Source: Burkholderiales bacterium (GTDB lineage: Bacteria; Pseudomonadota; Gammaproteobacteria; Burkholderiales; Burkholderiaceae_C). Taken from it: a stretch of DNA of 64,000 nucleotides. Under the pieces are notes generated by a model. That model saw only the letters and a program-made list of their open reading frames with translations. It made no database searches and was not told where the DNA came from. The stretch covers positions 1-64,000 of the forward strand of contig JAFKGE010000036.1 in assembly GCA_017307865.1 (NCBI GenBank). The letters are read 5' to 3'. Every line of letters starts with the position of its first letter. Within the stretch, counting starts at the first letter, position 1. The position numbers were made by a program, and so were the translations under genes. Positions 4,517 through 64,000 of the stretch are shown here, piece after piece.

Positions 4517-4574
4517 GAATAAAAAAGCTGCCGGCGCCTGCCAATCAAGCGCGAGCAGCTTCTGATTTGATAGC
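4517..4574 (+). repeat. Family-1 repeat, copy A
   Basis: A ~58-bp copy of the dispersed element, recognised by the core CAAGCGCGAGCAGCT and the 3' mini-stem GCTTCT...GATAGC. It lies in the 88-base gap between the fba stop and the purC start, thus in the purC leader on the opposite strand to the element's plus orientation. Confidence 0.85.
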
Positions 4575-4585
4575 GTCTTGCGTAC

Positions 4586-5650
4586 TTAGACGACGCGCTG
4601 CGCCAGTTCGCCCTTGGCGTATTTCTGGGCCATGGCGGACAGCGGCAAGCCCATGACCTTGGCGCCCTGGCCTTCGCAGCCGAACTCCAGGTAACGCTGC
4701 TTGCACACGGCCTTGGCGGCCTCGCGCGCGGGCTTCATCCACTCGCGCATGTCGAACTTGTCGGGGCTCTGGGCCTGGAACTGGCGCACCGCGCCGGTCA
4801 TGGCCATGCGGATGTCGGTGTCGATGTTGATCTTGCGCACGCCGTGCTTGATGGCTTCCTGGATCTCCTTGACCGGCACGCCGTAGGTCTGCTTCATCTG
4901 GCCGCCATACTGGTTGATGATGGCCAGCAGCTCCTGCGGCACGCTGCTGGAGCCGTGCATCACCAGATGGGTGTTGGGGATGCGGGCGTGGATTTCCTTC
5001 ACGCGCGAGATGGCCAGCACGTCGCCCGTGGGCGGACGGGTGAACTTGTAGGCGCCGTGGCTGGTGCCGATGGCGATCGCCAGCGCGTCCAGCTGCGTGG
5101 CCTTGACGAACTGCGCCGCTTCCTCGGGGTCGGTCAGCAGCTGGCTGTGGCTGAGCTTGCCGACCGCGCCGATGCCGTCTTCCTCGCCGGCCTCGCCGGT
5201 TTCCAGGCTGCCCAGGCAGCCCAGCTCGCCCTCCACCGTGGCGCCGACCTTGTGCGCCATGGCCACCACTTCCTGCGTCACGCGCACGTTGTAGTCGAAG
5301 TCGGCCGGGGTCTTGCCGTCTTCCTTGAGGCTGCCGTCCATCATGACCGAGCCGAAGCCCAGCTTGAGCGCGCCGGCGCACACCGCCGGGCTGGTGCCGT
5401 GGTCCTGGTGCATCACCATCGGGATGTGCGGATAGGCCTCGGCCGCGGCCTGGATCAGGTACTTGATGAAGTGCTCGCCGGCGTACTTGCGCGCGCCGGC
5501 GCTGGCCTGCAGGATGACGGGCGCGCCGACCTCGTCGGCGGCCGACATGACGGCCTGCACCTGCTCCAGGTTGTTGACGTTGAAGGCGGGAATGCCGTAG
5601 TTGTGCTCGGCCGCGTGGTCGAGCAGCTCGCGCATGGAAACGAGTGGCAT
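4586..5650 (-). CDS. fba: Fructose-bisphosphate aldolase, class II
   Basis: Zinc-dependent aldolase that interconverts fructose 1,6-bisphosphate with dihydroxyacetone phosphate and glyceraldehyde 3-phosphate (glycolysis, gluconeogenesis, Calvin cycle). The 354-residue length and the sequence fit the class II CbbA/FbaA group. HQDHG at 81-85 supplies metal ligands; GTSHGAYKF and the loop VMHGSSS carry further metal and substrate residues, and NIDTDIR is the phosphate-binding segment. It lies in a minus-strand glycolytic group with pyk and pgk. Confidence 0.96.
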
Positions 5651-5711
5651 GAGGCAGTCCTCCGAGAGTTCAAAAGCCGGTGGGCGCGCGCGCCCGCGAA
5701 TCCGCCCGATT

Positions 5712-7969: not shown

Positions 7970-8049
7970 GGCGTGGGCGGCAAAGGCGTTGCGAGCGGAC
8001 ATTCTGGCATGCCGCCGTGACCGGTCGTCGATTTCATGCCGAATCGACC

Positions 8050-8094
8050 GCCAGCGCCCGCACAGCAAGCACAAGCAGCTATCGATAACAAAGC
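8050..8094 (+). repeat. Family-1 repeat, copy B (short)
   Basis: A shortened copy of the dispersed element with CCAGCGCCCGCA, CAAGCAGCTATC and a terminal AAAGC. It lies upstream of pyk on the far side from its coding sequence. Confidence 0.7.
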
Positions 8095-8179
8095 ATATCA
8101 GTCACCCATGACGCGGTACATCACCCGCAGGGCATAAAACCCAAAGAGCCCAATGGCCGCGGAGCAGGCCACGCGGGAA

Positions 8180-8257
8180 CGCCGTGGAGCGGGCTTGGCC
8201 CGGCCACTGGCGTTGTCCCCCTTGGGGGAAGGCGCCGAAGGCGACACAGGGGGTGTT
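8180..8257 (+). repeat. Diverged family-2 GC-rich repeat
   Basis: The stretch contains GCCGTGGAGCG, then TCCCCCTTGGGGGA and GGCGCCGAAGGCG stems. The GCCGTGGAGCG and five-base C/G palindromes match the logic of the element inside fmt and the murU-like gene, though overall identity is partial. It begins right after the ClsC-like stop codon, so the CCCCCAAGGGGG stem may also act as a transcript end for that gene. Confidence 0.5.
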
Positions 8258-9838
8258 TTATAACTGCGATTCGATCGGCAGCCAGCTCAGCAACCACACC
8301 AGCGCGCGCAGGCCGGCGCCGGTTTCGGGCTCGTGCGTCCACACGCGCTCGCCCGCGGCGCCCTGCCAGCGCAGGCTGCCGTCCTCGGCCAGGGTGACGC
8401 GCCAGGCGCTGTCGGGGCGGGTGCCGACGTCGAACAAGTGCCGCACCTCGGCCGCCAGCCCGGCGTGGTCGAACACCACGCCCATCTCGGTGTTGAGCTG
8501 GGCCGAGCGCGGGTCGAAGTTGAACGAGCCGACGAAGCCGCGCTGGCCGTCGACCACGAAGGACTTGGTGTGCAGGCTGGCGCCGCTGGAGCCCAGCAGC
8601 TCGCGCTCGGTCCTGGCCTGGCCCGGGCGCAGCTCGTACAGCGTCACGCCCTGGCGCAGCAGCGGCGCGCGCCAGTCCATGTAGCCGGCATGCACCATGG
8701 GCACGTCGTTGGCGGCCAGCGAATTGGTCAGCACGCGCACCTGCACGCCGCGCCGCGCCTGGCCAGCCAGCAGCAGGGTGCCGGTCTCGCCGGGCACGAA
8801 GTAGGGCGAGATCATCCAGCTGTCGCGCTCGGCCGAGTACAGCAGCTTCATGACGTCGAACAGCAACCAGCCGGCGCGCTCCTGCTGGCTGGCCACGGGA
8901 GAGGCCTTCTCGGGCGGATCGGACAGCACGCGGATGCTGGGCGACCAGTGCATCGTCAGCGCGCCGCCGGGCTGCAGCTGCCGGGCCAGGTCGTCGCGCT
9001 CGGCCAGCGCCTTCACCCAGGGCGAGGCGCGGGCCTCGTCCTGCCATTGCTGGCGGTGGGCGCTGAATTCCTCGGCCGTCCAGCGCGAGCCCTGGTCGTG
9101 CAGCGCGCGCAGCGGCACCACGGCGGCGGAGTTCCAGAAGGCGTCGAACACGGCGCTGGCCTGCGTCACGGCGGGGCCGGTGAGCAGCAGGTCGGCGTCG
9201 TGGAAGTTGGTGTCGGCGGCGGCGTCGAAATACTCGTCGCCCACGTTGCGCCCGCCGACGACGGCCAGCCGGTTGTCGGCGATCCAGGCCTTGTTGTGCA
9301 TGCGACGGGTGAAGCCGACGAAGCGCAGGCCCATCTCCAGCGCGCGCCGCAGGCCGCTGGCGCGGTTGCGCCCGGGGTTGAACAGGCGCACCTCCAGGTT
9401 GGGGTGCGCGTCCATGGCCAGCAGGGCGTCGTCGCGGCCGGCCACGTTCATGTCGTCGAGCAGCAGGCGCACGCGCACGCCGCGCTCGGCGGCGGCCATC
9501 AGCTCGTGCTGCAGCAGGTGGCCGGTCAGGTCGCCATGCCAGATGTAGTACATCGCGTCCAGGCTGCGCTCGGCGGCGCGGCCGGTGCGCGCGCGCGCCA
9601 CGAAGGCCGACACCCCGTCGCCCAGCATGGCGGCGCCGCTGGACTGCGCCGGCTGCGCGGCCAGCAGCGGCTGCACCAGGCGGTCCAGCGTTGTGGCGGC
9701 CTCGGCCACCACCAGTGCCGACGCCGGCTCGCCCTGGGCGCGGGCGGCAAAACGGCCCCACGACCACAGCGCCAGCACCGACAGCACGACCAGCACGGCC
9801 AGCGCGATCAGGGTCCAGCGAAGGGCGGGATTCAGCAC
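8258..9838 (-). CDS. clsC: Phospholipase D family, ClsC-like cardiolipin synthase
   Basis: A 526-residue membrane-anchored PLD-superfamily enzyme. One transmembrane segment near the N-terminus (about residues 8-25) is followed by two HKD catalytic domains: HNKAWIADN...GGRNVGDEYFD and HTKSFVVDG...GSFNFDPRS. The GGRNVGDEYF and FNFDPRS signatures are those of E. coli YmdC/ClsC, which makes cardiolipin from phosphatidylglycerol and phosphatidylethanolamine. The start is GTG at 9838, placed by a perfect AGGAGG six bases upstream. That ribosome site lies inside a copy of the family-1 repeat. Confidence 0.85.
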   Translation of the reverse strand: MLNPALRWTLIALAVLVVLSVLALWSWGRFAARAQGEPASALVVAEAATTLDRLVQPLLAAQPAQSSGAAMLGDGVSAFVARARTGRAAERSLDAMYYIWHGDLTGHLLQHELMAAAERGVRVRLLLDDMNVAGRDDALLAMDAHPNLEVRLFNPGRNRASGLRRALEMGLRFVGFTRRMHNKAWIADNRLAVVGGRNVGDEYFDAAADTNFHDADLLLTGPAVTQASAVFDAFWNSAAVVPLRALHDQGSRWTAEEFSAHRQQWQDEARASPWVKALAERDDLARQLQPGGALTMHWSPSIRVLSDPPEKASPVASQQERAGWLLFDVMKLLYSAERDSWMISPYFVPGETGTLLLAGQARRGVQVRVLTNSLAANDVPMVHAGYMDWRAPLLRQGVTLYELRPGQARTERELLGSSGASLHTKSFVVDGQRGFVGSFNFDPRSAQLNTEMGVVFDHAGLAAEVRHLFDVGTRPDSAWRVTLAEDGSLRWQGAAGERVWTHEPETGAGLRALVWLLSWLPIESQL

Positions 9839-9841
9839 AAA

Positions 9842-9893
9842 AATCCTCCTGACGCCCGCCCAATCTGCGCGAGCAGCTATTGAAATGAAAGCG
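9842..9893 (+). repeat. Family-1 repeat, copy C
   Basis: Copy of the dispersed element with ACGCCCGCCCAATC, GCGCGAGCAGCTATT and terminal GAAAGC. It fills the gap between the pgk stop (9895) and the ClsC-like start (9838). The minus-strand AGGAGG at 9845-9850, the probable Shine-Dalgarno of the ClsC-like gene, lies within it. Confidence 0.85.
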
Positions 9894-9894
9894 A

Positions 9895-11088
9895 TCAGCC
9901 GGCCGCGCGCCGCTCCAGAATCGCCAGCGCCGGCAATGTCTTGCCTTCCAGCACCTCCAGGAAGGCGCCGCCGCCGGTGGAGATGTAGCCCACCTTGTCT
10001 TCGATGCCGTACTTGGCAATGGCCGCCAGCGTGTCGCCGCCGCCGGCGATGCTGAAGGCGGGCGAGGCGGCAATGGCCTGCGCGATGACCTTGGTACCGT
10101 TCTCGAACGGCGCCAGCTCGAACACGCCCACCGGGCCGTTCCAGACGATGGTGCCGGCCTGCATCAGCTGCGCCGCCAGCCGCGCGGCGGTGTCGGGGCC
10201 GATGTCCAAGATCATGTCGTCGGACCCGACCTCGGTTGCGGCCTTCACCGTGGCTTTCGCGTCGGCCTTGAATTCGGTCGCCGTCACCACGTCGGTGGGA
10301 ATCGGCACTTCGGCGCCACGCGCCTTCATGGTCTCGATCACCGCCTTCGCCTGATCCACCAGATCCGGCTCGGCCAGGCTCTTGCCGATCGGCAGGCCCG
10401 CCGCCAGCATGAAGGTGTTGGCGATGCCGCCGCCGACGATCAGCCGGTCCACCTTGGACGCCAGCGCCTGCAGGATGGTCAGCTTGGTGCTGACCTTGCT
10501 GCCCGCCACGATGGCCACCAGCGGGCGCCTGGGCGCCGCCAGCGCGCGCTGCAGGGCGTCGATCTCGGCGGCCAGCAGCGGGCCGGCGCAGGCGATGGGC
10601 GCGTACTGCGCCATGCCGTAGGTGGTGGCCTCGGCGCGGTGGGCGGTGCCGAAGGCGTCGTTGACGTAGATGTCGCACAGCGCGGCCAGCTGGCGCGACA
10701 GCGCGTCGTCGCACTTTTTCTCGCCCTTGTTGACGCGGCAGTTTTCCAGCAGCACCAGCTGGCCGGGCTGCACGGCGACGCCGCCCACCCAGTCTTGCCG
10801 CAGCGGCACGGCGCGCCCCAGCAGCTCGCCCAGGCGCGCCGCCACCGGCGCCAGCGAGTCGGCGGGCGTCAGCTGCCCCTCGGTTGGGCGGCCCAGGTGG
10901 CTGGTGACCATCACCGCCGCGCCGGCGTCGAGCGCCAGGCGGATGGCCGGCAGGCTGGCGCGGATGCGCGTGTCCTCGGTGATGGCGCCGCTCTCGTCTT
11001 GCGGCACATTGAGATCGGCGCGGATGAAAACCCTTTTGCCGCGGGCGGCGCCTTGCGCGCACAGGTCGGTAAAGCGAATGACGTTCAT
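9895..11088 (-). CDS. pgk: Phosphoglycerate kinase
   Basis: Transfers phosphate from 1,3-bisphosphoglycerate to ADP in glycolysis. The 397-residue protein shows the N-domain RADLNVPQ and TSHLGRP motifs, [13 protein letters not shown], the hinge region, and C-domain ATP-binding [13 protein letters not shown] and STGGGAFLE segments, all canonical. It is the first gene of the minus-strand group pgk, clsC-like, pyk. Confidence 0.97.
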
Positions 11089-12302: not shown

Positions 12303-13531
12303 GGCGCCGCTCCCGCCGCGTCGAAGCACTGGCCGGGCGCCAGCGCAAAGCCGGCCAGAAAGTCGCGCGCCGGCAGGCGCTTGCCGCCGGCGCGCTGCAG
12401 CTCGGTGAGCCGCAGCACGCCGCGGCCGCAGGCCACCGCCACGCCGGCGTCGTTTGCAGACAAAATCTGGCCGCAGCGCGCGTCCGTCGGGCGCGAGCAG
12501 CTATCAATTTGAGATTTCCACACCTTGACCACCTTGCCGTCCAGCGCCGTGTGCGCGCCCGGAAACGGATCGAAGGCGCGCACCCGACGCTCGATCACGT
12601 CGGCCGGCAGCGTCCAGTCGATCGCCGCCTCGTGCTTGTCGATCTTGGCGGCGTAGCTGACGCCCGCGGCCGGCTGCGGCGTGCGCACCCAGCGCTCGGG
12701 CTGGCGCAGCGCCTGCACGATCAGGCGCGCGCCCAGCGCGGCCAGCGCGTCGTGCAGGCTGGCCGTGGTGGCGCGTGCGTCGATCGGCAGCGCCTGCGCC
12801 GCCAGCATGTCGCCGGTGTCCAGCCCGGCGTCCATCTGCATGATCGTGACGCCCGTCTCGACATCGCCCGCCTCGATGGCGCGATGAATGGGCGCCGCGC
12901 CGCGCCAGCGGGGCAGCAGCGAGGCATGGATGTTCAAACAACCCAGACCCATGCCCCCACGCTCCACGGCTTCGCCTGTTGCGCTGCCCCCCGAGGGGGC
13001 CTTCGCGCCTTCGGGCGGCCGTGCGGCGCTCACGTCATTCCCCCCACGCTCCACGGCTTCGCCTGTTGCGCTGCCCCCCGAGGGGGCCTTCGCGCCTTCG
13101 GGCGGCCGTGCGGCGCTCACATCATTCCCCCCACGCTCCACGGCTTCGCCTGTTGCGCTGCCCCCCGAGGGGGCCTTCGCGCCTTCGGGCGGCCGTGCGG
13201 CGCTCATGGCATCGAGCACCCACTGCGGCAGGATCAGGCCGTAGGCGGCTACCACCATGACGTCGGCGCGCGCGGCCTGCAGGGCGGCCTGGGCGGCGGC
13301 GGCGTCCTCGGGGTACTTGCCGTCCAGCCGCAGACTGCGCGGCTGGGCGACGGCGATGCCGCGCGCCTGCGCCAGCTGCTTGACGGGCGACGCCTGCAGC
13401 TTCAGGCCGCGCCCGGCCGGGCGGTCGGGCTGGGTCAGCACCAGGGGCACGGCAAAGCCCGCGTCCAGCAGCGCCTGCAGGGCGGCGCGGGCAAAGTCGG
13501 GCGTGCCGGCAAAAACGACGCTCAGGCTCAT
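12299..13531 (-). CDS. fmt: Methionyl-tRNA formyltransferase with repeat insertions
   Basis: Formylates initiator Met-tRNA with 10-formyl-THF. The catalytic region is intact: [20 protein letters not shown] carries the Asn and His, and [12 protein letters not shown] follows with the Asp. The protein is 410 residues, against about 310-320 usually. Most of the excess is residues ~110-196: three near-identical 29-residue units ([15 protein letters not shown]...) between VLDAM and [14 protein letters not shown] family-1 repeat also encodes residues ~339-358 in the C-terminal domain, where sequence is variable in homologues. The frame is open throughout, and because the gene is normally essential or near-essential for growth, it is probably functional. 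Confidence 0.93.
12459..12517 (+). repeat. Family-1 repeat, copy D, inside fmt
   Basis: AAAATCTGGCCGCAGCGC, GGGCGCGAGCAGCTATC and a degenerate 3' stem mark this copy. It lies wholly inside the fmt C-terminal domain, read on its complementary strand, and codes for [18 protein letters not shown] without breaking the frame. Confidence 0.8.
12954..13206 (-). repeat. Three 87-bp tandem family-2 repeats inside fmt
   Basis: Three units with an exact 87-base period (aligned bases 12958, 13045, 13132) are identical apart from about one base in the linker. Each contains GCTGCCCCCCGAGGGGGCC and GCGCCTTCGGGCGGCC on the plus strand. Because 87 is divisible by three, each unit adds 29 codons to fmt. Near-identity points to recent tandem duplication. 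Confidence 0.95.
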
Positions 13532-16157: not shown

Positions 16158-17378
16158 ATGGACCCGGACGAGCTGGCCGCTTGGCTGCGCCTGACGCTCA
16201 CGCCGGGCGTCGGCAACGACACCGCGCGCCGTCTGCTGGCGGCCTTCGGACTGCCGCAGGCGATCTTCGTGCAACCCGCCGCGGCGCTGCGCCAGCTGCT
16301 CAGCCCCACGCAGGCCAGCGCCCTGGCGCAGGAGCCGCCCGAGCTGGCGGCCCGGCTCAAGGCCACGCAGGACTGGCTGGACGGCGCCGAGGACGGCCTG
16401 GGGCGGCGCGTCATCACGCTGGGCGACAGCGCCTACCCGGCCGGCCTGCTGACCATCGAGGACCCGCCGGTGCTGCTGTATGCCACCGGACAGCTCCAGT
16501 TGCTCGAATCCGAGTCAAATCGGCCTCCAGCCCGCTCTGAATCTGCGCTACGAGCTATTGATTCAATAGTAAATGGCTGGCCCACCCAGGCGCTGGCGGT
16601 GGTCGGCAGCCGCAACCCCACGCCGCAGGGCGCACAAAACGCGCGCCAGTTCGCGCGCCACCTGGGCGCGGCGGGCCTCACCATCGTCTCGGGCCTGGCG
16701 CTGGGGGTGGACGGCGCCGCGCACGAGGGCGCGCTGCAGGCCGTGGACGAGACGGCGCCCGCGCGCCGGCTGGCCACCGTGGCGGTGATCGGCACCGGCA
16801 TCGACCGCGTCTACCCGCGCCAGCACCGCGCGCTGGCGCACCGCATCGCGCGCCAGGGCCTGATCCTGAGCGAATACCCGCTGGGCACGCCGCCGCTGCC
16901 GGCCAACTTTCCCAAGCGCAACCGCCTGATCGCGGGCCTGGCCCAAGGCACGCTGGTGATCGAGGCGGCGCTGCAGTCGGGCTCGCTGATCACCGCGCGC
17001 CTGGCGGCCGAGCAGGGCAAGGAGGTGTTCGCCATCCCGGGCTCCATCCACTCGCCGCAGTCGCGCGGCGCGCACGCCCTGCTGCGCCAGGGCGCCAAGC
17101 TGGTCGAAACGGCCCAGGACGTGCTGGAAGAGCTGCGCTGGCCCGCCGCGGCCGCGCCCGCCGACGCCCTCGGCCCCGTGCCCGATGCGCCCGTGCCCAA
17201 CGGCGACACCGCCGCCCTGCTGGCCGCCCTGGGTGCCGATCCGGTCGGCTTCGACGCCCTGCAGGCACGCACCGGGCTGCCCACCGAGCGGCTGCAGGCG
17301 CGGCTGCTGGAGCTGGAACTGGACGGCCAGGTGAGCCGCCTGCCGGGCGGCCTGTTTCAGCGCCTGGCGCGGGCGTAA
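16158..17378 (+). CDS. dprA: DNA-processing protein DprA
   Basis: Loads RecA on incoming single-stranded DNA in natural transformation. The 406-residue protein has the Rossmann core with VVGSRNPT, SGLALGVDGAAHEGAL, PKRNRLIAGL and EAALQSGSLITARLAAEQG, an N-terminal SAM-like part and a C-terminal winged-helix region. Residues ~116-140 (LESESNRPPARSESALRAID) are encoded by a family-1 repeat and lie between the N-terminal part and the Rossmann core, where homologues have a short linker. It converges on the DUF1631 gene with 8 bases between stops. Confidence 0.94.
   Translation: MDPDELAAWLRLTLTPGVGNDTARRLLAAFGLPQAIFVQPAAALRQLLSPTQASALAQEPPELAARLKATQDWLDGAEDGLGRRVITLGDSAYPAGLLTIEDPPVLLYATGQLQLLESESNRPPARSESALRAIDSIVNGWPTQALAVVGSRNPTPQGAQNARQFARHLGAAGLTIVSGLALGVDGAAHEGALQAVDETAPARRLATVAVIGTGIDRVYPRQHRALAHRIARQGLILSEYPLGTPPLPANFPKRNRLIAGLAQGTLVIEAALQSGSLITARLAAEQGKEVFAIPGSIHSPQSRGAHALLRQGAKLVETAQDVLEELRWPAAAAPADALGPVPDAPVPNGDTAALLAALGADPVGFDALQARTGLPTERLQARLLELELDGQVSRLPGGLFQRLARA
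16511..16571 (+). repeat. Family-1 repeat, copy E, inside dprA
   Basis: TCAAATCGGCCTCCAGCCCG, TGCGCTACGAGCTATTG and a perfect terminal stem CTATTG...CAATAG identify this copy. It lies wholly inside dprA in the element's plus orientation and keeps the frame. Confidence 0.85.
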
Positions 17379-28750: not shown

Positions 28751-28762
28751 CCGGCCGGTATT

Positions 28763-28822
28763 TTCAAGCCAAATCGGCCTGTAATGCCCGCCAGTCAAGC
28801 GCGAGCAGCTATCGTTTTTGTA
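28763..28822 (+). repeat. Family-1 repeat, copy F
   Basis: The clearest copy: CAAGCCAAATCGGCCTGTAA, GCCCGCCAGTCAAGCGCGAG and CAGCTATC. It lies between the convergent dacB and fixJ-like genes, and its right end supplies the last codons and TAG stop (28809-28811) of the regulator. Confidence 0.9.
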
Positions 28823-29432
28823 TCAAATTGGCCAGCTCGACGGCCGACTTGACGTCCATCTTCTCGAACACGCGGGCGCGGTGCACCTCCACCGTGCGCA
28901 CGCTGATGTTCAGCTCGTCGGCGATCTGCTTGTTGGCGCGGCCCTCGGCAATGCGCGTCATCACCGCCGCCTCGCGCTCGGTCAGCTCGTCCAGCCGCGC
29001 CTGCAGCGCCTGGCGCTGGGCGCGCTCGGCCAGCCGCTCGCGCGACAGCGCCAGCGCCTGCTCCACGCGGTCGACCAGGGCGTTGTCGGAAAACGGCTTT
29101 TCGCAAAAGTCGAAGGCGCCGCGCTTGACGGTGTCCACCGCCGTCGGCACGTCGGCATGCCCGGTCAGGAAGATCACCGGCCAGACGGCGGTCACGCCGC
29201 GCGCCAGCAGGCGGTCGAACAGCGTCAGGCCGCTCACGGCCGGCATGCGCACGTCCAGCAGGATGCAGCCGGGCGTGGCCGGCGCCGTCTCGCCCAGGCT
29301 CTGCTCGAAGGCGCTGGCGCTGGCGTGGGTCTGCGACAGCAGGCGGCGCGAGCGCAGCAGCCAGGCCATGGCCTCGCGCACGCTGGGGTCGTCGTCGATG
29401 ATGTGGACGATGGCATCACCGGGGTGGGTCAT
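28809..29432 (-). CDS. FixJ/NarL-type response regulator
   Basis: A 207-residue transcriptional response regulator. The receiver domain has the acidic pair in HIIDDDPS, phospho-acceptor Asp60 in LLDVRMP, T in FLTGHAD and the conserved Lys in FCEKPFS. The C-terminal LuxR-type helix-turn-helix contains LTEREAAVMTRIAEGRANKQIADEL broken across the helices and SVRTVEVHRARV. It resembles FixJ/TtrR/DctR regulators. No kinase gene is adjacent; the PAS kinase at 42494-44626 is the only candidate partner in the window. The final codons and stop lie in a family-1 repeat. Confidence 0.9.
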   Translation of the reverse strand: MTHPGDAIVHIIDDDPSVREAMAWLLRSRRLLSQTHASASAFEQSLGETAPATPGCILLDVRMPAVSGLTLFDRLLARGVTAVWPVIFLTGHADVPTAVDTVKRGAFDFCEKPFSDNALVDRVEQALALSRERLAERAQRQALQARLDELTEREAAVMTRIAEGRANKQIADELNISVRTVEVHRARVFEKMDVKSAVELANLIQKR

Positions 29433-33343: not shown

Positions 33344-34657
33344 ATGAAAGTCATCGTTCTGGGCGGCGGCGTGATTGGTGTCAGCACCGCGTACTACCTG
33401 GCGCGCGCCGGCGCGCAAGTCACCGTGCTGGAGCGCGAAAGCGGCGTGGCGCTGGAGACCAGCTTCGCCAACGCCGGCCAGGTCTCGCCCGGCTACTCCA
33501 CGCCCTGGGCCGCGCCCGGCATTCCGCTCAAGGCCGTCAAGTGGATGTTCCAGAAGCACGCGCCGCTGGCCATTCGCCTGGACGGCAGCATGTTCCAGCT
33601 GCGCTGGATGGCCGCCATGCTGCGCAACTGCACCAGCGCGCGCTACGCCGTCAACAAGGAACGCATGACGCGCCTGGCCGAGTACAGCCGCGACTGCCTG
33701 CGCGGCCTGCGCGCCGACACGGGTATCGAGTACGAGCAGCGCACCCTGGGCACGCTGCAGGTGTTTCGCACCGCCAAGCAGATGCAGGCCGCGCAGCGCG
33801 ACACCGCCGTGCTGCAGGAGTGCGGCGTGCCCTATCGCATGATGACGGACGCCAGCGCCCTGGCCGAATACGAGCCCGCGCTGGCCCACGCCCAAGGCCT
33901 GGTCGGCGGCCTGCAGCTGCCGGGCGACGAAACCGGCGACTGCCAGCGCTTCACCACCGAGCTGGCCGAGCGTGCCAAGGCGTTGGGCGTGCAGTTTCGC
34001 TTCGGCGTGCAGATTGCCGAGCTGCAACAGCGCGCCGGCCAGATCAGCGGCGTCAAGCTGGCCGGCGAAGCCGGCGAGACGCTCACGGCCGACCGCTACG
34101 TGCTGGCGCTGGGCAGCTATTCGCGCGCGCTGCTGGGCCCGCTGGGGCTGGACCTGCCGGTCTACCCGGTCAAGGGCTATTCGCTGACGGTGCCGCTGGT
34201 GGACGAGGCGCGCGCGCCGCGCTCCACCGTGATGGACGAGACCTACAAGGTCGCCATCACGCGCTTCGACCAGCGCATCCGCGTCGGCGGCATGGCCGAG
34301 CTGGCGGGCTTCGACCTGCGCCTGAACCCGGCGCGCCGCGCCACGCTGGAGATGGTCACGCGCGGTCTGTTCGACGGCGGTGGCGACCTGCCGGCCGCGA
34401 CCTTCTGGACCGGCCTGCGCCCGATGACGCCCGACAGCACACCCATCGTCGGCGCCACGCGCCTGTCCAACCTGCTGATCAACACCGGCCACGGCACCTT
34501 GGGTTGGACCATGGCGGCCGGCTCGGGCAAGCTGGTGGCCGACCTGACGCTGGGCCACCGGCCCGACATCTCGACCGACGGCTTGGGCCTCGGTCGCTAT
34601 TCAAAACAGAGCGCCTCGCGCTTGACCGGCGCGGGCCACCGGCCGGTTCATGCCTGA
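33344..34657 (+). CDS. dadA: D-amino acid dehydrogenase small subunit
   Basis: A 437-residue FAD enzyme that oxidises D-amino acids such as D-alanine to 2-oxoacids, passing electrons to the respiratory chain. The dinucleotide-binding [18 protein letters not shown] is at the N-terminus; [20 protein letters not shown] and [16 protein letters not shown] are DadA signatures, and [14 protein letters not shown] binds FAD at the C-terminus. ATG 33344 is preferred, with GGAG seven bases upstream. Divergent Lrp regulator. Confidence 0.94.
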
Positions 34658-34666
34658 ATTTCGCCG

Positions 34667-39020: not shown

Positions 39021-39028
39021 GGTTTTAT

Positions 39029-39086
39029 GAATAAAAAATGCTTGTAGCGCCCGTCCATAAAGCGCGAACAGCTATTAATAAAATAG
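39029..39086 (+). repeat. Family-1 repeat, copy G
   Basis: TAGCGCCCGTCCATAAAGCG, CGAACAGC and a perfect terminal stem GCTATT...AATAGC. It lies 9 bases upstream of the mmsA start, in the mmsA leader. Confidence 0.85.
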
Positions 39087-39096
39087 CAAATACCGA

Positions 39097-39200
39097 GCGC
39101 CGAGGACGCGAAGATTACGCAAAAGACGCAGAAAAACCCATCATATTTTTGACTTTCTCTTTTGCGCCCTCTGCGAATCCTTTGCGCCCTCTGCGTTCGG
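39097..39200. repeat. Purine/pyrimidine-asymmetric inverted repeat
   Basis: The left half (about 39099-39136) is purine-rich with ACGCGAAGATTACGCAAAAG; the right half is pyrimidine-rich and carries TTTGCGCCCTCTGCG twice with a 20-base period (39161 and 39181). The halves are imperfect reverse complements around an AT-rich centre, giving a long weak hairpin just after the transaminase stop. Similar CGCAGAGGGCGCAAAGG strings occur between genes in many proteobacteria. Confidence 0.55.
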
Positions 39201-39211
39201 CTGTTGGAAGT

Positions 39212-40673: not shown

Positions 40674-41621
40674 ATGACGCAAGTAAGCACCCGCCAGCCC
40701 CGCGCCCGCGCCCTGCTGGGGCAGCTCAGCGACATGGACCTGCGCCTGCTGCAGGTGTTCAAGGCGGTGGTCGACTGCGGCGGCATGGCGGCGGCCGAGC
40801 TGGAGCTGAACATCGGCATCAGCGCCGTCAGCCGCCACGTGAAGGACCTGGAAACGCGCCTGGGCCTGACGCTGTGCCGGCGCGGGCGCGCGGGCTTCGC
40901 GCTGACGGCCGAGGGCCAGCGCGTGTACGACGAGACGCTGCGCCTGCTGGCCGCTGTCGACGGCTTTCGCGCCAGCGTGCACGACATCCACGCGCGCATG
41001 GGCGGCAAGCTGGCCATCGCGCTGTTCGACAAGACCGCCAGCAACCCCGCCGCGCGCATTCACCAGGCGATCGCGGCGTTTCGCGACCAGGCGCCCGACG
41101 TCGCGCTGGAGTTGCACGTGGGCACCATCCAGGCGATCGAGCGCGGGGTGCTGGACGGCAGCTTTGCCGTCGGCGTGATCCCGGCGCACCGCGCCTCAAG
41201 CAGCCTGCGCTATGAACGGCTGTTCGGCGAGACCATGCGCCTGTATGCCGGCGCCGGCCATGCGCTATTCAATCAGGAGCACGCTGCGCTGGACTGGAAA
41301 GCGCTGCGGGCCCGTTCGGACTTTGCCGGCCTGGGCTACCACTCGCCCAACCTGGAACTGGCGCACGCGCGCCACCTGCAGCGCGGCGCCACCGCCTTCG
41401 ACCAGGAAGCGATCGCCACGCTGATCCTGTCGGGACGCTTCGTCGGCTTTCTGCCCGACCACTACGCCGACGCCTTCGTGCAGCGCGGCCAGCTGCGCGC
41501 CGTGGCGCCGGCCAGCCTGCACTACGCCTGCGACTTCGTCAGCGTGCTGCGCCGCTCGCCGCAGCCGCCGCGCGCGGCGCTGGCGTTTCATCAGGCGCTG
41601 CGGGCGGCGCATGGCGCATGA
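40674..41621 (+). CDS. LysR-family regulator
   Basis: A 315-residue LysR-type regulator. The N-terminal winged helix includes LRLLQVFKAVVDCGGMAAAE and ISAVSRHVKDLETRLGL; the rest is the two-lobed effector domain. Divergence from the transaminase-mmsA genes suggests that it activates beta-alanine catabolism with a pathway intermediate as effector; this is inference from position. Confidence 0.9.
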   Translation: MTQVSTRQPRARALLGQLSDMDLRLLQVFKAVVDCGGMAAAELELNIGISAVSRHVKDLETRLGLTLCRRGRAGFALTAEGQRVYDETLRLLAAVDGFRASVHDIHARMGGKLAIALFDKTASNPAARIHQAIAAFRDQAPDVALELHVGTIQAIERGVLDGSFAVGVIPAHRASSSLRYERLFGETMRLYAGAGHALFNQEHAALDWKALRARSDFAGLGYHSPNLELAHARHLQRGATAFDQEAIATLILSGRFVGFLPDHYADAFVQRGQLRAVAPASLHYACDFVSVLRRSPQPPRAALAFHQALRAAHGA

Positions 41622-49645: not shown

Positions 49646-52462
49646 ATGACCCGCGATGAAGCGCCGGGTTCGGTGCTGACACCCGATTCGCCCCACTTGG
49701 CAGGGGCCATGCACTCACGCCTGGTGCAGCGCCTGCGCCGCCGCTACGCCGACGAATTGCCCCTGCTGCCGCCCGGCACGCCCGATGCGGCCGCCATGGC
49801 CGCCACCTTGCAGCGCCTGCGCGCGCACGGCCACGCCACCGGCGCGGCGCTGCGCATCCTGCGCCAGCTGGTGATGGAGCGCCTGGTGGTGCTGGACTGC
49901 GAACAGGGCGCGCCGCTGGCCACCGTCACCGGCGTGGTCACCGCGCTGGCCGAGCTGGCGCTGGACGTGGCCTGCACCGAAGCCTTCGAGCAGCTCGACG
50001 CGCGCCACGGCGCGCCCCGGACGGCGGCCGGCGAGCGCGCCCAGCTGTGGGTGGTGGGCATGGGCAAGCTGGGCGCGCGCGAGCTCAACGTCTCCAGCGA
50101 CGTCGATTTGATCTACATCTACGACGCCGACGGCGAAACCGCCGGCCGCACGGGTGACGCCGAGGGCGCCGGCCGCATCTCGGTGCAGGAATACTTCACC
50201 CGCGCGGTGCGCCTGATCAGCACCCTGATCGGCGACGTCACCGAGCACGGCTTCGTGTTTCGCGTCGACCTGGCGCTGCGGCCCAACGGCAACTCGGGCG
50301 CGCCGGCCAGCTCGCTGGCCGCGCTGGCCGAATACATGCGCGTGCAGGGGCGCGAGTGGGAGCGCTTTGCCTGGCTCAAGAGCCGCGTGGTGGCGCCGCG
50401 CGCCGTGCTGGCCGGCGGGCCGGTGCTGGCGCTGCGCTCGGTGGTGCAGCCCTTCGTGTTTCGCCAGTACCTGGACTACAGCGTGTTCGACGCCCTGCGC
50501 GAACTGCACCGCCAGGTGCGCGAGCACGCCAACAAGCGCAGCGCCGGGCGCCCGGCGCGCGCCAGCGACGTCAAGCTCTCGCGCGGCGGCATCCGCGAGA
50601 TCGAGTTCATCGTGCAGTTGCTGCAGGTGGTGCGCGGCGGCCAGTACCCCGAGCTGCGCACGCGCCCGACGCTGGACGCGCTGGAGCGCATCGCCCGCGC
50701 CGGCCTGATGCCCGCCGAGGCCACCCAGGCGCTGGCGCGCGCCTATATTTTTCTGCGCCGGGTCGAGCACCGCATCCAGTACCTGGACGACCAGCAGACG
50801 CACCTGCTGCCCACCCACGACGACGACCTGCTGTGGCTGGCGCGCACCATGGGTTACCCCGACCTGTGCGCCTTCCTGGGCGAGTTCGACACCCACCGCG
50901 AGACGGTGGCCGAGCAGTTCGACCAGCTGCTGGGCGGGCCCGAGCCCTGCAAAGCCTGCAACAGGCTCAAGCCCGCCCCCGCCGGCCAGGCCGCGCCCGA
51001 CGAGGGCGCCGACCTGGCCCGCCTGCCCGCGCTGACCGAGCACGCCGCCGTGCGCGCCGAGCTGCAGCGCTGGTGCGCCCTGCCGCACGTGCAGGGCCTG
51101 CGCGAAGACGCGCGCCAGCGCCTGCTGCGCGTGATGGGGCTCACGCTGCAATGGCTGAACGCCGGCCGCGTGAGCGACACCGCCGTGCTGCGCTTTCTCG
51201 AATGGGTGGACGCGCTGCGGCGGCGCCAGAACTACCTGGCCCTGCTGCTGGAGCGCCCCGCCGCGCACGAGCGCCTGCTGCGCCTGCTGGGCACCGCGCG
51301 CTGGCCGGCGCGCTACCTGATGCGCCATCCCGGCGTGATCGACGAGCTGGCCAACCCCGAGCTGCTGGCCGGCCGCTTCGACGCCGCCACGCTGGAGCGC
51401 GAGCTGCACGAGCGCCGCAGCGCCCTGGCGCGCGGCGGCGAGGACGACGAGGAAAACCTGCTGGCCCTGCTGCGCCGCGCCCACCACGCCGAGGTGTTCC
51501 GCACCCTGGTGCGCGACGTCGAGCGCAGCATCACCGTCGAGCAGGTGGCCGACGACCTGTCGGCGCTGGCCGACGCCATCCTGCGCGTCAGCCTGCGCTG
51601 GTGCTGGCCGCTGGTGCGCCACCACCACCGCGCCACGCCGCAGCTGGGCGTCATCGGTTACGGCAAGCTGGGCGGCAAGGAGCTGGGCTACGGCAGCGAC
51701 CTGGACCTGGTCTTCGTCTACGACGACGAGCACGAGCAGGCGGCCGAAATCTACGCCGCGCTGGTGCGCAAGCTGATCACCTGGCTGACGCTGAAAACCG
51801 GCGACGGCGACCTGTACGAGATCGACACCGCCCTGCGCCCCAACGGCGGCTCGGGCCTGCTGGTGACCTCCTTCGGCGCCTACGCCGACTACCAGCAGCA
51901 GCGCGGCAGCAACACCGCCTGGACCTGGGAGCACCAGGCCATGACCCGGGCAAGAATGGTGCCCCCCGAATTGCACAGCGACAACCCGGCGGCCCCTTCA
52001 CCCATGGAGCAGCGCTTCAACGCCATCCGCCACGCCGTCATCACCGCGCCGCGCGACCATGCGGCGCTGCGCACCGAGATCGTGGCCATGCGCGAGCGCA
52101 TGCGCGGCGCGCACCCGGTGCCGGCCGGGCAGTTCGACGTCAAGCACAGCCCCGGCGGCATGATCGACGCCGAGTTCGCCACCCAGTACCTGGTGCTGGC
52201 CCACGCCGGCGAACACCCCGAGCTGGAGCCCAACCTGGGCAACATCGCCCTGCTGGCGCGCGCCGAGGCCGCCGGCCTGCTGCCCGCCGGCGTGGGCCAG
52301 GCCAGTGCCGACGCCTACCGCAGCCTGCGCCACGTGCAGCACCTGGCGCGGCTGGACGAGCAGCCCACCCAGGTGCCGCCCGAACCCCTGGCCAGCGAGC
52401 GCGCGGCCATCGGCGCGCTGTGGCAGGCGGTGTTCGGCGCGGCGGCCGGCACGCTGGCCTGA
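49646..52462 (+). CDS. glnE: Glutamine synthetase adenylyltransferase/deadenylase
   Basis: A 938-residue bifunctional enzyme that adenylylates and deadenylylates glutamine synthetase under PII control. Two nucleotidyltransferase domains are evident: GMGKLGARELNVSSDVDLIY in the N-half (deadenylylase) and GYGKLGGKELGYGSDLDLVF in the C-half (adenylylase), each followed by a helical regulatory region. The ATG follows a purine-rich GGGGGAAAG stretch. It is divergent from yhdP, a common betaproteobacterial arrangement. Confidence 0.95.
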   Translation: MTRDEAPGSVLTPDSPHLAGAMHSRLVQRLRRRYADELPLLPPGTPDAAAMAATLQRLRAHGHATGAALRILRQLVMERLVVLDCEQGAPLATVTGVVTALAELALDVACTEAFEQLDARHGAPRTAAGERAQLWVVGMGKLGARELNVSSDVDLIYIYDADGETAGRTGDAEGAGRISVQEYFTRAVRLISTLIGDVTEHGFVFRVDLALRPNGNSGAPASSLAALAEYMRVQGREWERFAWLKSRVVAPRAVLAGGPVLALRSVVQPFVFRQYLDYSVFDALRELHRQVREHANKRSAGRPARASDVKLSRGGIREIEFIVQLLQVVRGGQYPELRTRPTLDALERIARAGLMPAEATQALARAYIFLRRVEHRIQYLDDQQTHLLPTHDDDLLWLARTMGYPDLCAFLGEFDTHRETVAEQFDQLLGGPEPCKACNRLKPAPAGQAAPDEGADLARLPALTEHAAVRAELQRWCALPHVQGLREDARQRLLRVMGLTLQWLNAGRVSDTAVLRFLEWVDALRRRQNYLALLLERPAAHERLLRLLGTARWPARYLMRHPGVIDELANPELLAGRFDAATLERELHERRSALARGGEDDEENLLALLRRAHHAEVFRTLVRDVERSITVEQVADDLSALADAILRVSLRWCWPLVRHHHRATPQLGVIGYGKLGGKELGYGSDLDLVFVYDDEHEQAAEIYAALVRKLITWLTLKTGDGDLYEIDTALRPNGGSGLLVTSFGAYADYQQQRGSNTAWTWEHQAMTRARMVPPELHSDNPAAPSPMEQRFNAIRHAVITAPRDHAALRTEIVAMRERMRGAHPVPAGQFDVKHSPGGMIDAEFATQYLVLAHAGEHPELEPNLGNIALLARAEAAGLLPAGVGQASADAYRSLRHVQHLARLDEQPTQVPPEPLASERAAIGALWQAVFGAAAGTLA

Positions 52463-52523
52463 ATGCTACTATTTACATAGCTGTCCGCGCTTGATGGGCA
52501 AGCACCGGAACCACTTTTTATTC
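52462..52523 (-). repeat. Family-1 repeat, copy H
   Basis: The complement reads GCCCATCAAGCGCGGACAGC with the 3' mini-stem GCTATG...AGTAGC. It starts at the last base of glnE and fills most of the gap to the convergent pepP stop. Confidence 0.85.
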
Positions 52524-52545
52524 AAAACCCTGGGGCGCGCCCGCC

Positions 52546-60510: not shown

Positions 60511-61365
60511 TTATTGCAGCGCCGCCAGCCGCTCGGGCGTGCCGACGTCGGTCCAGGCGCCGGTGTACAGCTCGGCGCCGACCTGCCCGGCGGCGATGGC
60601 GCGGCGCAGCAGCGGCGCCAGCGGCGCGGCCACGCCCTGCGGGTTGCCGGGCTGGATGTCGCACCAGGGCGGCTCGAACAGCGCGCGCCGGTACAGGCCC
60701 ACGGTGCTGAAGGTGTAACGGCCCCCACGCTCCGCTGCTGCGCATGCTGCGCTGCCCCCCGAGGGGGCCTGCCCGCCTTGGGGCGGCCCAGCGCTGGGCG
60801 GCGCGCCACCCGGCGGCACCTCGTTCAGCGCCAGTCCGCCCGCCCCGATGCCGAAGTCGCCCGCCGGGTTGTGCGGCGGGTTGGGCACCAGCCACAGCTG
60901 CGCCAAGCGGCCGCTGGCGGCAAAGCGCCGCACCGCCTCGGGATCGAAGCGGAAGTCGGGCGCATAAATGTCGCCCGCCAGCACCCAGAACACGTCCTCG
61001 GCCGTGGGCGCCAGCAGCGGCAGCGCGCGGACGATGCCGCCGGCCGTCTCCAGCGCGCGGCCGAAGTCGCGGCCTTCGGACGAGAAGCGGATGGCGGGTT
61101 GGTCATTTTTCGATAGCTGCTCGCGCTTGTCCATCAAGCGCTGTGGGCCAAAATAGCCCTCGATCTGCTCACCCAGCCAGGCGGTGTTGACGACGACTTC
61201 GCGCACGCCATCACGCGCCAGCGCGTCCACCCACCACTGCAGCAGCGGCCGGCCGCGCACCGGCAGCAGCGGCTTGGGCGTGTGGTCGGTCAGCGGGCGC
61301 ATGCGCTCGCCGCGGCCGGCGGCCAAAATCAGCGCGCGCGGCGCGGGCAGGGCGTCCAAAGTCAT
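60511..61365 (-). CDS. MurU-like nucleotidyltransferase with two repeat insertions
   Basis: A 284-residue sugar-1-phosphate nucleotidyltransferase. The N-terminal ILAAGRGERMRPLTDHTPKP signature binds NTP, VLAGDIYAPDF carries the metal Asp, and the family matches MurU (N-acetylmuramate-1-phosphate uridylyltransferase of the cell-wall recycling bypass). Homologues are about 220-240 residues. The extra length comes from residues ~71-91, encoded by a family-1 repeat, and ~188-215 (GGAPPSAGPPQGGQAPSGGS), encoded by a family-2 repeat. Both keep the frame and core motifs survive. No amgK partner gene is in the window. Confidence 0.83.
   Translation of the reverse strand: MTLDALPAPRALILAAGRGERMRPLTDHTPKPLLPVRGRPLLQWWVDALARDGVREVVVNTAWLGEQIEGYFGPQRLMDKREQLSKNDQPAIRFSSEGRDFGRALETAGGIVRALPLLAPTAEDVFWVLAGDIYAPDFRFDPEAVRRFAASGRLAQLWLVPNPPHNPAGDFGIGAGGLALNEVPPGGAPPSAGPPQGGQAPSGGSAACAAAERGGRYTFSTVGLYRRALFEPPWCDIQPGNPQGVAAPLAPLLRRAIAAGQVGAELYTGAWTDVGTPERLAALQ
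60722..60803 (-). repeat. Family-2 repeat inside the murU-like gene
   Basis: CCCCCACGCTCCGCTGCTGC, GCGCTGCCCCCCGAGGGGGC and the following CCGCCTTGGGGCGGCC match the units inside fmt in order and orientation. It is translated in the same frame as in fmt (APSGGSA...AERGG in both). Confidence 0.88.
61103..61160 (-). repeat. Family-1 repeat, copy I, inside the murU-like gene
   Basis: The complement contains GGCCCACAGCGCTTGATGGA and CAAGCGCGAGCAGCTATCG. It lies wholly inside the murU-like gene, replacing a short loop of homologues. Confidence 0.85.
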
Positions 61366-61454: not shown

Positions 61455-61679
61455 ATGCACACCCTCAAACTCACGCAGATCGGCAATTCGGTGGGCGTGA
61501 TCCTGCCCAAGGACGCGCTGGCCAAGCTCAAGCTGCAAAAGGGCGAATCGGTGTTCCTGACCGAATGCGCCGACGGCTTCATCCTCACGCCCTACGACCC
61601 GGCGCTGGACGAAGAGCTGAACGCCGGGCGCGAGTTCATGCGCGAGTACCGCGACACCTTCCACCAGTTGGCCAAATGA
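61455..61679 (+). CDS. AbrB/MazE-type antitoxin
   Basis: A 74-residue protein. The swapped-hairpin AbrB domain is LKLTQIGNSVGVILPKDALAKL, as in MazE/SpoVT-AbrB antitoxins, followed by an acidic C-terminal tail that would bind and neutralise the toxin. CAGGAG lies before the ATG. It overlaps the doc gene by 4 bases (ATGA). It probably also binds the palindrome over its own promoter. Confidence 0.88.
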   Translation: MHTLKLTQIGNSVGVILPKDALAKLKLQKGESVFLTECADGFILTPYDPALDEELNAGREFMREYRDTFHQLAK

Positions 61680-62062
61680 GCTGGCGCTGGATCAGCAAGC
61701 CCGCGCTGCTGCTGCTGCACGCCGAAAGCCTGGCCGAGCACGGCGGCAGCCCCGGCCTCCGCGACGAAGGGCTGCTCGACTCGGCCCTGGCGCGCCCGCA
61801 AAACCTGCTGGCCTACGGCGAGCCCGATGTGGCTGCGCTGGCCGCCGCCTACGGCAGCGGCGTGGCGCGCAACCACCCCTTCATCGACGGCAACAAGCGC
61901 GCCGCGCTACTTTCTATCGGCCTGTTTCTGCACCTGAACGGCTGGCGCCTGACCGCCAGCCAGGCCGACACCACGCGCACCATGCTGGCCCTGGCCGCCG
62001 GCGAGCTCCCCGAAGACGCCCTGGCCGACTGGCTGCGCCGCCACGCCGCGCCGCGCGCCTGA
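61676..62062 (+). CDS. doc: Doc/Fic-family toxin
   Basis: A 128-residue death-on-curing protein. The Fic motif HPFIDGNKRAA (67-77) contains the catalytic His and the ATP-anion hole; Doc toxins phosphorylate elongation factor Tu and stop translation. Length matches Doc. Translationally coupled to the AbrB-type antitoxin, making a complete type II toxin-antitoxin module beside a restriction-modification gene. Confidence 0.9.
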   Translation: MSWRWISKPALLLLHAESLAEHGGSPGLRDEGLLDSALARPQNLLAYGEPDVAALAAAYGSGVARNHPFIDGNKRAALLSIGLFLHLNGWRLTASQADTTRTMLALAAGELPEDALADWLRRHAAPRA

Positions 62063-62102
62063 ACGGCCCACGGTGGGCGGGCCGCACCTATCATTGCCCG
62101 CC

Positions 62103-64000
62103 ATGTCCCCGCCGCCCGACCTCGCCGCCGCCGAACCCGCGCACGCTGCCGCCAACCAAGCCGCCGCCGCCTTCATCGCCCGCTGGCAAGGCGTGCAGGC
62201 CAGCGAGCTGGCCACCGCGCAAAGCTTCGTCATCGACCTGTGCCGGCTGCTGGGCGTGGCCGCGCCGCACCCCACGCCCGAGCAGGACTACATGTTCGAG
62301 CGCCCCATCACCTTCGCGCACGGCGACGGCTCCACCAGCGCCGGGCGCATCGACTGCTACCGGCGCGGCGCCTTCGTGCTGGAGGCCAAGAAGCTCAAGG
62401 CCGCCGGCCACACGCGCACTTTCGACGACGGCCTGATCCGCGCCCGCAGCCAGGCCGAGGGCTACGCCCGCGCGCTGCCGGCGGCCGAGACGCGCCCGCC
62501 CTTCCTGCTGGTGGTCGACGTCGGCACCGTGATCGAGGTCTACGCCGAATTCAGCCAGAGCGGCGCCACCTACACGCCGTTTCCCGACCCGCGCAGCCAC
62601 CGCATCGCGCTGGCCGACCTGGCCCGCCCCGACATCCGCGCGCGGCTGGCCGCCATCTGGCGCGACCCGCACAGCCTCGACCCCGCGCGCATCAGCGCCC
62701 GCGTCACGCGCGAGGTCTCGGCCCTGCTGGCCGAGCTGGCGCGCTCGCTGGAGGCCAGCCTGGGTTTCAAGCCAAATCAGGCCGCAGCGCCCGTCCATCA
62801 ATCGCCGGCAGCTTCCGAAGTGGTAGCAAACTACCTCACCCGCTGCCTGTTCAGCATGTTTGCCGAGGACGTCGAGCTGCTGCCCCAGGGCGCCTTCACC
62901 CAGCTGCTGCAAACCCACCGCCGCGACCCCGAAACCCTGCGCCAGATGCTGCGCATTTTGTGGGCCGACATGGACCACGGCGGCTTTTCGGCCGCGCTGG
63001 CCGGGCGCGTGCTGCACTTCAACGGCAAGCTGTTCAAGGGCGCGGCGGGCGACGGCTACAGCCTGCTGCTGACGCCCGCGCAGATCGAGCTGCTGATTGC
63101 GGCCGCGCGCTGCAACTGGCGCGAGGTCGAGCCCGCCATCTTCGGCACCCTGCTCGAGCGCGCGCTCGACCCCGCCGAGCGCCACGCCCTGGGCGCGCAC
63201 TACACCCCGCGCGCCTACGTCGAGCGCCTGGTGCTGCCCACCGTCATCCAGCCGCTGCGCGCCGAATGGCAGGACGCCCACGCCGCGGCCCTGGTGCTGG
63301 CCGCCGAGGCGCACCAACTCACCGGCCGCGCCGCCGACGAGAAAATGGCCGCCGCGCGCCAGCAGGTGCGCGCCTTTCACCACCGCCTGTGCAGCCTGCG
63401 CGTGCTCGACCCGGCCTGCGGCAGCGCCAACTTTCTCTACGTCACGCTCGAACACCTCAAGCGCCTCGAAGGCGAAGTGCTCAACACCCTGGCCGACCTG
63501 GGCCAGACGCAGGACGCGCTGGCCTTCGAGGGCGAGACGGTGACGCTGCAGCAGCTGCGCGGCATCGAGCTGAACGAGCGCGCCGCCGCCCTGGCCGAGC
63601 TGGTGCTGTGGATCGGCTGGCTGCAGTGGCACGTGCGCACCCACGGCCTGGCCAGCGTGGCCGAGCCCGTGGTGCACAACTACGGCAACATCGAATGCCG
63701 CGACGCCGTGCTGGCCTGGGACGCGCAAGAACCCGCCCGCGACGCCGCCGGCCGCCTGCTCTCGCGCTGGGACGGCGTCACGCACAAGCCCCACCCCGTC
63801 ACCGGCCAGCCCGTGCCCGACGAGGCCGCCCAGGTGCCGCAGTGGCGCTACCTGGGCGCGCGCAAGGCGCAGTGGCCGCAGGCGGATTTCATCGTCGGCA
63901 ACCCGCCCTTCATCGGCGCCAAGTTTCTGCGCGACTCATTGGGCGACGGCTACGCCCAGGCCCTGCGCGCCGCCTGGCCCGAGGTGCCCGAAAGCGCCGA
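62103..64000 (+). CDS. MmeI-like type IIL restriction-modification enzyme (partial)
   Basis: The first ~632 residues of a single-chain endonuclease-methyltransferase; the window ends before the stop. Near the N-terminus Asp84, Glu94 and Lys96 form D-X9-E-x-K ([16 protein letters not shown]), the nuclease site reported for MmeI. A helical connector follows, then methyltransferase motif [13 protein letters not shown] (from residue 436) and motif [10 protein letters not shown] (from 600). Such enzymes cut ~20 bases from the site and need adenine methylation for protection. Residues ~222-243 ([20 protein letters not shown]) are encoded by a family-1 repeat in frame. The target-recognition domain lies beyond the window. 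Confidence 0.87.
62766..62829 (+). repeat. Family-1 repeat, copy J, inside the MmeI-like gene
   Basis: TTCAAGCCAAATCAGGCCGC, AGCGCCCGTCCATCAATCG and the terminal GCTTCC...GGTAGC stem. It sits in the helical connector between nuclease and methyltransferase domains and keeps the frame. Confidence 0.85.

Follow-up and report, generated by a model that had tools for sequence, protein, structure and literature searches.

What accounts for a 67-bp sequence that recurs at hundreds of places in one bacterial genome? The question is raised by a stretch of 64,000 nucleotides from a Burkholderiales bacterium (assembly GCA_017307865.1, contig JAFKGE010000036.1, positions 1 to 64,000; referred to here as the window), in which a sequence-only reading had noticed ten copies of a small dispersed element and proposed that it is mobile and non-autonomous, perhaps mobilised in trans through a short stem as repetitive extragenic palindromic (REP) elements are by RAYT proteins. 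Having followed the element through its own genome and related ones, we find that its copies seem to resemble a maintained sequence tag more than a jumping element. We tentatively favour the interpretation, whose chances we put a little short of even, that they represent one 67-bp word, kept by selection or biased recombination and read by a putative sequence-specific protein, as a genomic watermark similar to an uptake signal.

The unit is gap-free and has sharp edges, with the information content dropping to background near both ends (34 copies), and at 67 bp it is longer than the ~60 bp originally given for it. In the orientation used here its rough consensus is wTTTCAAGCCAAATnGGCCTnCAGCGCCCGTCCATCAAGCGCGAGCAGCTATCRATTTGATAGCaa, corresponding to a word of ~55 bits (0.83 bits x 67 positions). 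A sequence-only model recovers all ten of the reported window copies at their places, with E values from 3.5e-17 to 1.6e-7 each; six of the 36 copies from which the model was built come from the window, and their matches are therefore partly by construction, whereas those at 8031, 16507, 52462 and 62764 lie outside the model-building set. Both orientations are represented as described, eight of the ten copies being on the + strand and two on the - strand, and with a refined weight matrix two weaker copies emerge at 34593-34659 and 41261-41327, both on the - strand.

The survey of copies covered 864 kb of the window's own genome and 400 kb each of two related genomes, G411 and G659. The own-genome sample contains 149 copies scoring at least 18 bits, in both orientations, compared with none in order-2 shuffles, and the description of a dense dispersed family is thus borne out. 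Extrapolation from 149 copies per 864 kb to the whole 3.9-Mb genome suggests that ~670 copies are to be expected, or ~170 per Mb. Across the entire genome the exact 14-letter core GCGNGAGCAGCTAT occurs 39 times forward and 37 times in reverse, compared with no occurrence of the reversed control and one match for a spacing control in which the core pattern has eight rather than seven spacer letters. A model search of the genome matched all 150 of the candidates that were scored (150 among 7762). The copies are ~53% alike on average, an identity at which a plasmid BLAST search with the consensus (two records) is insensitive, and its result was not used.

Comparison of orthologous sites shows that the key bases have been retained since arrival, even within genes. 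For this we used 18 ungapped orthologous pairs (14 loci, with 15 pairs in predicted genes), chosen by their flanks and the score in the first genome, with no score required of the second. Retention is 147 of 159 in the nine key columns (35 of 35 in the A/T ones), compared with 383 of 540 across 30 bases of flank and 229 of 334 in the weak columns. Among 75 in-gene copies of the three genomes, the G+C fraction at third codon positions (GC3) falls to 0.48 within the unit from 0.92 nearby in the same genes, the codon ATA is found 33 times inside the unit and ten times outside it, and the match to the consensus, expressed relative to that of intergenic copies, hardly differs among codon positions 1, 2 and 3 (0.94, 0.93 and 0.96, respectively). 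Neutral old copies should have lost their A/T third positions, because there is strong GC pressure around them. Scores in the own genome form one high peak, with 143 sites above 30 bits and 15 between 0 and 30. Those in G659 are spread out, with 99 sites above 30 bits and 43 of 142 between 0 and 30, and maintenance may thus be relaxed in that genome, where the ParB copy scores 0 though the insertion persists.

Length comparisons indicate that the units did reach some sites as whole 67-bp pieces. Hylemonella served as the element-free reference (800 kb without a copy, best score 2.7), and the genes matched to it include those that we take to be ung, parB, topA, purK, ksgA, moaC, rsmE and algR; the name fmt, used below, is likewise our assignment. 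Of the 26 in-gene copies for which Hylemonella has an orthologue, 14, from 10 of 18 genes, occupy stretches at least five residues longer than in Hylemonella, a gain seen in only 6.4% of 295 control windows from the same genes; examples are +19 residues in uracil-DNA glycosylase (G411 and G659), +13 in ParB (G411) and +14 in DprA (own genome and G411). Spacers behave similarly, in that those with copies in 16 conserved gene pairs have a median gain of 88 bp (-11 bp in 74 controls, p 0.008), although the comparison is small and noisy and two of the 16 loci are one locus in two genomes. At dprA the unit is present in the window and in G411; the site is short in G659, G402, G497 and G452 and is occupied by other sequence in G519 and G595, so that one of seven compared genomes carries the unit, four are short and two are filled differently. 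The length gains and the scarcity of partial sites contradict step-by-step origin in place as the sole route. Whole-unit insertion is not the sole history either, because the net length change is at most two residues at seven of the 26 in-gene copies, and the word stretch in fmt is about the same length as in relatives without the word and 9-10 residues shorter than the Hylemonella linker. In G411 ksgA, 19 extra residues lie, by eye, beside the word and not under it.

Current mobility is not supported. No near-identical copies are present in the stretches examined, and neither terminal inverted repeats nor target duplications were found among 143 + 109 + 78 copies. Nearest-neighbour identity among own-genome copies has a mean of 0.687 and a maximum of 0.79, compared with 0.662 and a mean maximum of 0.743 after column shuffling, showing that the copies are near independent draws from one profile. 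When G411 was compared with G659, a comparison between species rather than strains, 39 G411 copies had both flanks aligned; 25 are shared, 12 are otherwise changed and two correspond to empty sites, one of them dprA. Other genera have recognisable units at the corresponding sites in fmt and in a nucleotidyltransferase gene, and the fmt site of A. temperans scores 50.6 bits. Copies at the same positions in distant species had been named in advance as speaking against a mobile element, and this is largely the pattern seen; the proposal is supported as regards whole-unit arrival at several sites and unsupported as regards mobility at present, given the sites shared across species and genera and the lack of near-identical copies in the stretches examined.

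The suggested mobilisation by a RAYT protein fares no better. The sole Y1_Tnp match in the own genome (L031, G000:C43:45000-45332) lies in a 3.3-kb locus without the word (best word score -7.5), and five element-rich genomes, G514 (90 cores), G633, G476, G619 and G563, are not among the 225 of 299 family genomes with a Y1_Tnp match, which is mostly to a single gene. On these grounds we regard the RAYT link as unsupported, bearing in mind that Y1_Tnp occurs more often where the element is abundant, in 47 of 52 element-rich genomes as against 178 of 247 others (p 0.004), perhaps as a clade effect. The gene at L031 has GGGGTCAGATC-type repeats on both sides, and G411 has 14 Y1_Tnp matches, several with identical scores, perhaps reflecting an active IS200-like element.

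Recognition in trans had been tied to a stem whose arms change together, and for this we see no clear sign. Tests of 21 candidate pairs against column shuffles, using 143 own-genome and 109 G411 copies, gave one result of 42 at p 0.04. Pair 12-22 is formed in 75 of 143 copies, less often than in shuffles (82.8). Pair 11-23 is formed in 138 of 143, as several pairs are in most copies, and many pairs are uninformative because one arm is nearly fixed (GCGC, GCTA) and hence unable to covary. The columns opposite the fixed G9 and T13 are mostly C/T and A/G, which is compatible with G-U wobble. The strongest column dependencies by mutual information (149 copies) are not between stem partners, RNAalifold finds two pairs only in 36 copies, and no Rfam family reaches its gathering threshold in the window.

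High word numbers are confined to part of one bacterial family. An order-wide sample of 399 genomes has more than two cores only in members of the window's own family, and in 299 genomes of that family the core count ranges from 0 to 413, with at least 10 in 52 genomes (hand count). The highest numbers are in G452 (413), G411 (384), G510 (178), G669 (168) and G497 (160), the own genome having 118 in that listing, and numbers differ greatly among congeners (7, 98 and 0; 110, 0 and 0; 20, 3, 86 and 168). The consensus also varies between congeners, being mostly GCGCCCG in the own genome and GCGCTTG in G411. Among 25 genomes found through named loci, 15 have a core match, with forward and reverse counts of 28+48 in A. 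temperans DSM 7270, 18+26 in Acidovorax Leaf191, 19+22 in A. benzenivorans, 18+11 in Acidovorax GW101-3H11, 26+31 in Extensimonas perlucida, 38+32 in strain OS-4, 57+48 and 53+44 in the metagenome-assembled genomes MKTG01 and JAFEEB, 7+5 in Comamonas composti, 3+6 in Comamonas avium, 2+3 in Acidovorax Leaf160 and 1+3 in Comamonas koreensis, and one match each in Diaphorobacter caeni, Variovorax boronicumulans and Hydrogenophaga pseudoflava. The other ten, including Hylemonella gracilis, Ramlibacter Leaf400, two Caldimonas and Bordetella genomosp. 5, have none. In IMG/VR the pattern CAAGCGCRAGCAGCTATNNA is found in 15 viral contigs (L288-L302), eight of which carry a site scoring 45 bits or more, with host flanks of prophages and phage copies pooled.

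Gene context was assigned with a simple gene caller rather than from annotation, and four of the 149 own-genome copies near stretch ends were excluded. Ninety-four of the remaining 145 lie between genes and 51 within predicted genes. There are 47 sense and 26 antisense copies in codirectional spacers and 30 sense and 21 antisense within genes, and many spacers are hardly more than the 67-bp unit. Own-genome copies are spaced more evenly than chance would give, with a coefficient of variation (CV) of 0.751 compared with 0.930 +- 0.073 for placement matched for spacers and genes (P 0.002), and 11.2% of gaps are shorter than 1.5 kb where 20.5% are expected. The longest gap in the G659 stretch holds Mu-like prophage genes (three of six proteins scanned) without copies, and that of G411 encodes large proteins with weak matches to repeat families.

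These properties would fit a word of the uptake type. The putative reader would most likely be a DNA-binding pilin of the competence type IV pilus; DNA of relatives that bears the word would be taken up preferentially and then recombined, and gene conversion would spread whole copies and purge broken ones. Among known systems the DNA uptake sequence (DUS) is the matching kind, because key bases are kept on any strand and in any frame, units can arrive intact and the consensus changes between lineages. As with uptake sequences, the word is over-represented on both strands, in spacers and in genes, and is retained at the DNA level in tolerant core sites; it departs from them in not being short, at 67 bp rather than a 9-12 bp core. 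Passages of PMC2397512 report that many Neisseria DUS arise by recombination and not by point mutation, and that DUS concentrate in permissive core-genome sites. According to passages of PMC4212676, A. temperans yielded transformants only from donor DNA of its own species, and DNA binding is selective in Verminephrobacter eiseniae, also one of the Comamonadaceae; these passages name no motif. Because A. temperans is element-rich here, its own-species-only transformation is a hint toward an uptake word. The fuller proposal, that Comamonadaceae own an uptake or mate-recognition watermark unrelated to DUS and to the uptake signal sequence (USS) and several-fold longer than any known, with congeneric dialects and from a few to several hundred copies, spread as whole units by recombination and kept inside core genes, is one that we would hold with clearly less than even confidence.

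Several observations weigh against an uptake word. Its 67 bp far exceed the length of known uptake words, and the origin by point mutation rather than insertion that is cited for those of Pasteurellaceae in PMC1939737 is unlike the length gains at this word; the own-genome sites scoring 0-20 bits (10 of 158) are also few for step-by-step accretion. Key columns 1 and 3 are retained in only 26 of 35 cases, the worst of the nine, and the variation in columns 21 and 25 is of a kind that G-U wobble tolerates, so that a top-strand hairpin may form. Overall there is a sense bias (77 vs 47, p 0.009), which is unexpected for an uptake word. Evenness of spacing is less clear in the relatives, since in G659 short gaps are deficient (P 0.0045) while the CV does not differ significantly from matched placement (P 0.18), and G411 has an overall CV of 1.11, which falls to 0.87 once a 31-kb gap is left out, with P 0.05 for short gaps. 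A match to the competence protein ComEC is present in 52 of 52 genomes with at least 10 cores and in 239 of 247 others (hand count, p 0.36); being near-universal it does not discriminate, and amounts to a test not failed. Transformation by own-species DNA only would also result from poor homology.

A rival reading is an old non-autonomous family resembling miniature inverted-repeat transposable elements or REP elements, which would have spread in bursts in ancestors of the Comamonadaceae and would now be immobile, decaying in some lineages such as G659 and partly exapted. Such a history would account for the whole-unit length gains in genes and spacers (+88 vs -11 bp median), presence and absence at dprA, the swings in copy number within genera (7/98/0; 110/0/0), the broad spread of G659 scores (43 of 142 sites at 0-30 bits), the top nearest-neighbour identity of 0.79 above all 20 column shuffles (up to 0.776), suggesting common descent, and the greater frequency of Y1_Tnp in element-rich genomes (p 0.004). 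We nevertheless consider it rather unlikely, as terminal inverted repeats and target duplications were not found in the copies examined, the key columns are far better retained than the flanks at old sites, A/T third positions persist in genes with a GC3 of 0.92, and spacing in the own genome is even.

Maintenance at the DNA level would also follow if the unit were bound by a nucleoid, chromosome-segregation or regulatory protein, with copies acting as evenly spread anchors. The constraint without clear base-pair covariation agrees with this, as does the lack of strand bias in two 400-kb stretches (54/60 and 59/50), and the even spacing suits an architectural site as well or better, because uptake sequences are, according to PMC1939737, not so even as is expected of compaction sites. 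We think it improbable all the same; no such protein can be named, 67 bp is long for one protein, related genomes with no cores would make the system dispensable, and the spread of whole units is left unaccounted for. A transcribed structure, either a bottom-strand intrinsic terminator or a hairpin for RNA processing, appears very improbable. The bottom strand of the copy at 4511-4577 does form a terminator-like stem with a T-run, at a site where relatives have an ordinary terminator-like hairpin with an A/T-run at no fewer than eight other loci (L109, L110, L124, L139, L144, L151, L152 and L165), and the wobble-compatible degeneracy of columns 21 and 25 and the mild sense bias point the same way; however, this is one locus, covariation is not clear, 51 of 145 copies are within predicted genes, and the terminator orientation is disfavoured in codirectional spacers (26 vs 47), for which reason a general terminator role was rejected. 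In a G659 spacer a GC-rich hairpin stands in the place of the G411 copy at 2716.

A keyword search of the literature, mostly without subscription papers, gave no recognised description of the 67-bp word. It shares with DUS of Neisseriaceae and USS of Pasteurellaceae the hundreds of copies on either strand, their placement in spacers and at coding sites that tolerate them, the dialects by lineage and the retention at the DNA level, and Neisseria DUS often appear by recombination according to PMC2397512; unlike those sequences it shows few partial matches, and its 67 bp compare with 9-11 bp (PMC4212676) or 29 bp including flanks (PMC1939737). It is a small dispersed repeat with many copies per genome, as are REP elements and REPINs with their RAYTs, but in the parts examined it lacks a clear covarying stem, a flanking RAYT and near-identical copies, and many of its copies are intragenic. 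Rickettsia palindromic elements are small repeats inserted in frame within genes, from which the word differs in its 67-bp length, its lack of clear palindrome covariation and its maintenance at the DNA level. The beta-proteobacterial repeat element (BRE), as described in PMC3110155, is likewise dispersed in Comamonadaceae with some copies within open reading frames; it is mostly 75-91 bp long with 69% GC, often tandem, tabulated at no more than 29 per genome and present in four listed Bordetella, and the word, with no core in Bordetella genomosp. 5, seems by this description to be different. A better BRE candidate than the word is a GC-rich ~87-bp repeat at 12953-13203 and 60722-60802 of the window, which has three copies in frame within fmt and is dispersed, often in tandem, in congeners.

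The window copies illustrate the variety of contexts; Pfam was run on ten window proteins, DprA among them. Copy 1 (4511-4577, +) lies between two - strand genes, 8 bp past the stop of the fructose-bisphosphate aldolase gene, which ends at 4586. Copy 2 (8031-8097, +) is at the 5' end of the pyruvate kinase gene (- strand, start codon tentative), and ~50 bp from a word copy, at 8149-8256, there is a ~105-bp dispersed repeat with 83-95% identity to dozens of places in G659 and G411, far less diverged than the word and thus perhaps recently mobile. Copy 3 (9829-9895, +) occupies the spacer between the phosphoglycerate kinase gene and a PLD-domain gene, copy 4 (12453-12519, +) is antisense within fmt, at a site recognisable in congeners and other genera, and copy 5 (16507-16573, +), common to G411, is in sense orientation within dprA. 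Copy 6 (28761-28827, +) overlaps the 3' end of a LuxR-type response regulator gene. The weaker copy at 34593-34659 (-, 42 bits) was absent from the original list, and the weak one at 41261-41327 (-, 24 bits) is within a predicted gene. Copy 7 (39024-39090, +), intergenic and upstream of an aldehyde dehydrogenase gene (- strand), has the top window score of 90 bits; it is abutted by a ~115-bp dispersed repeat (39088-39205) found at many places in G659, G411 and G574. Copy 8 (52462-52528, -) is in the convergent spacer of glnE and an aminopeptidase P-like gene, copy 9 (61098-61164, -) is in sense orientation within the nucleotidyltransferase gene and recognisable by eye in six of six compared genomes, and copy 10 (62764-62830, +), near the window end, was excluded from the gene-context count.

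To our knowledge, self-recognising DNA uptake words are known from two bacterial families. Both families are named in the abstract of PMC1939737. If the interpretation of the 67-bp unit as an uptake word is true, it would be a third, independent and much longer one, and would allow the choice between selfish drive and mate recognition to be tested afresh in environmental bacteria that are naturally transformable. Should the uptake reading prove wrong, a word of this information content, kept at hundreds of sites that include dprA and fmt, would still call for a putative reader protein.

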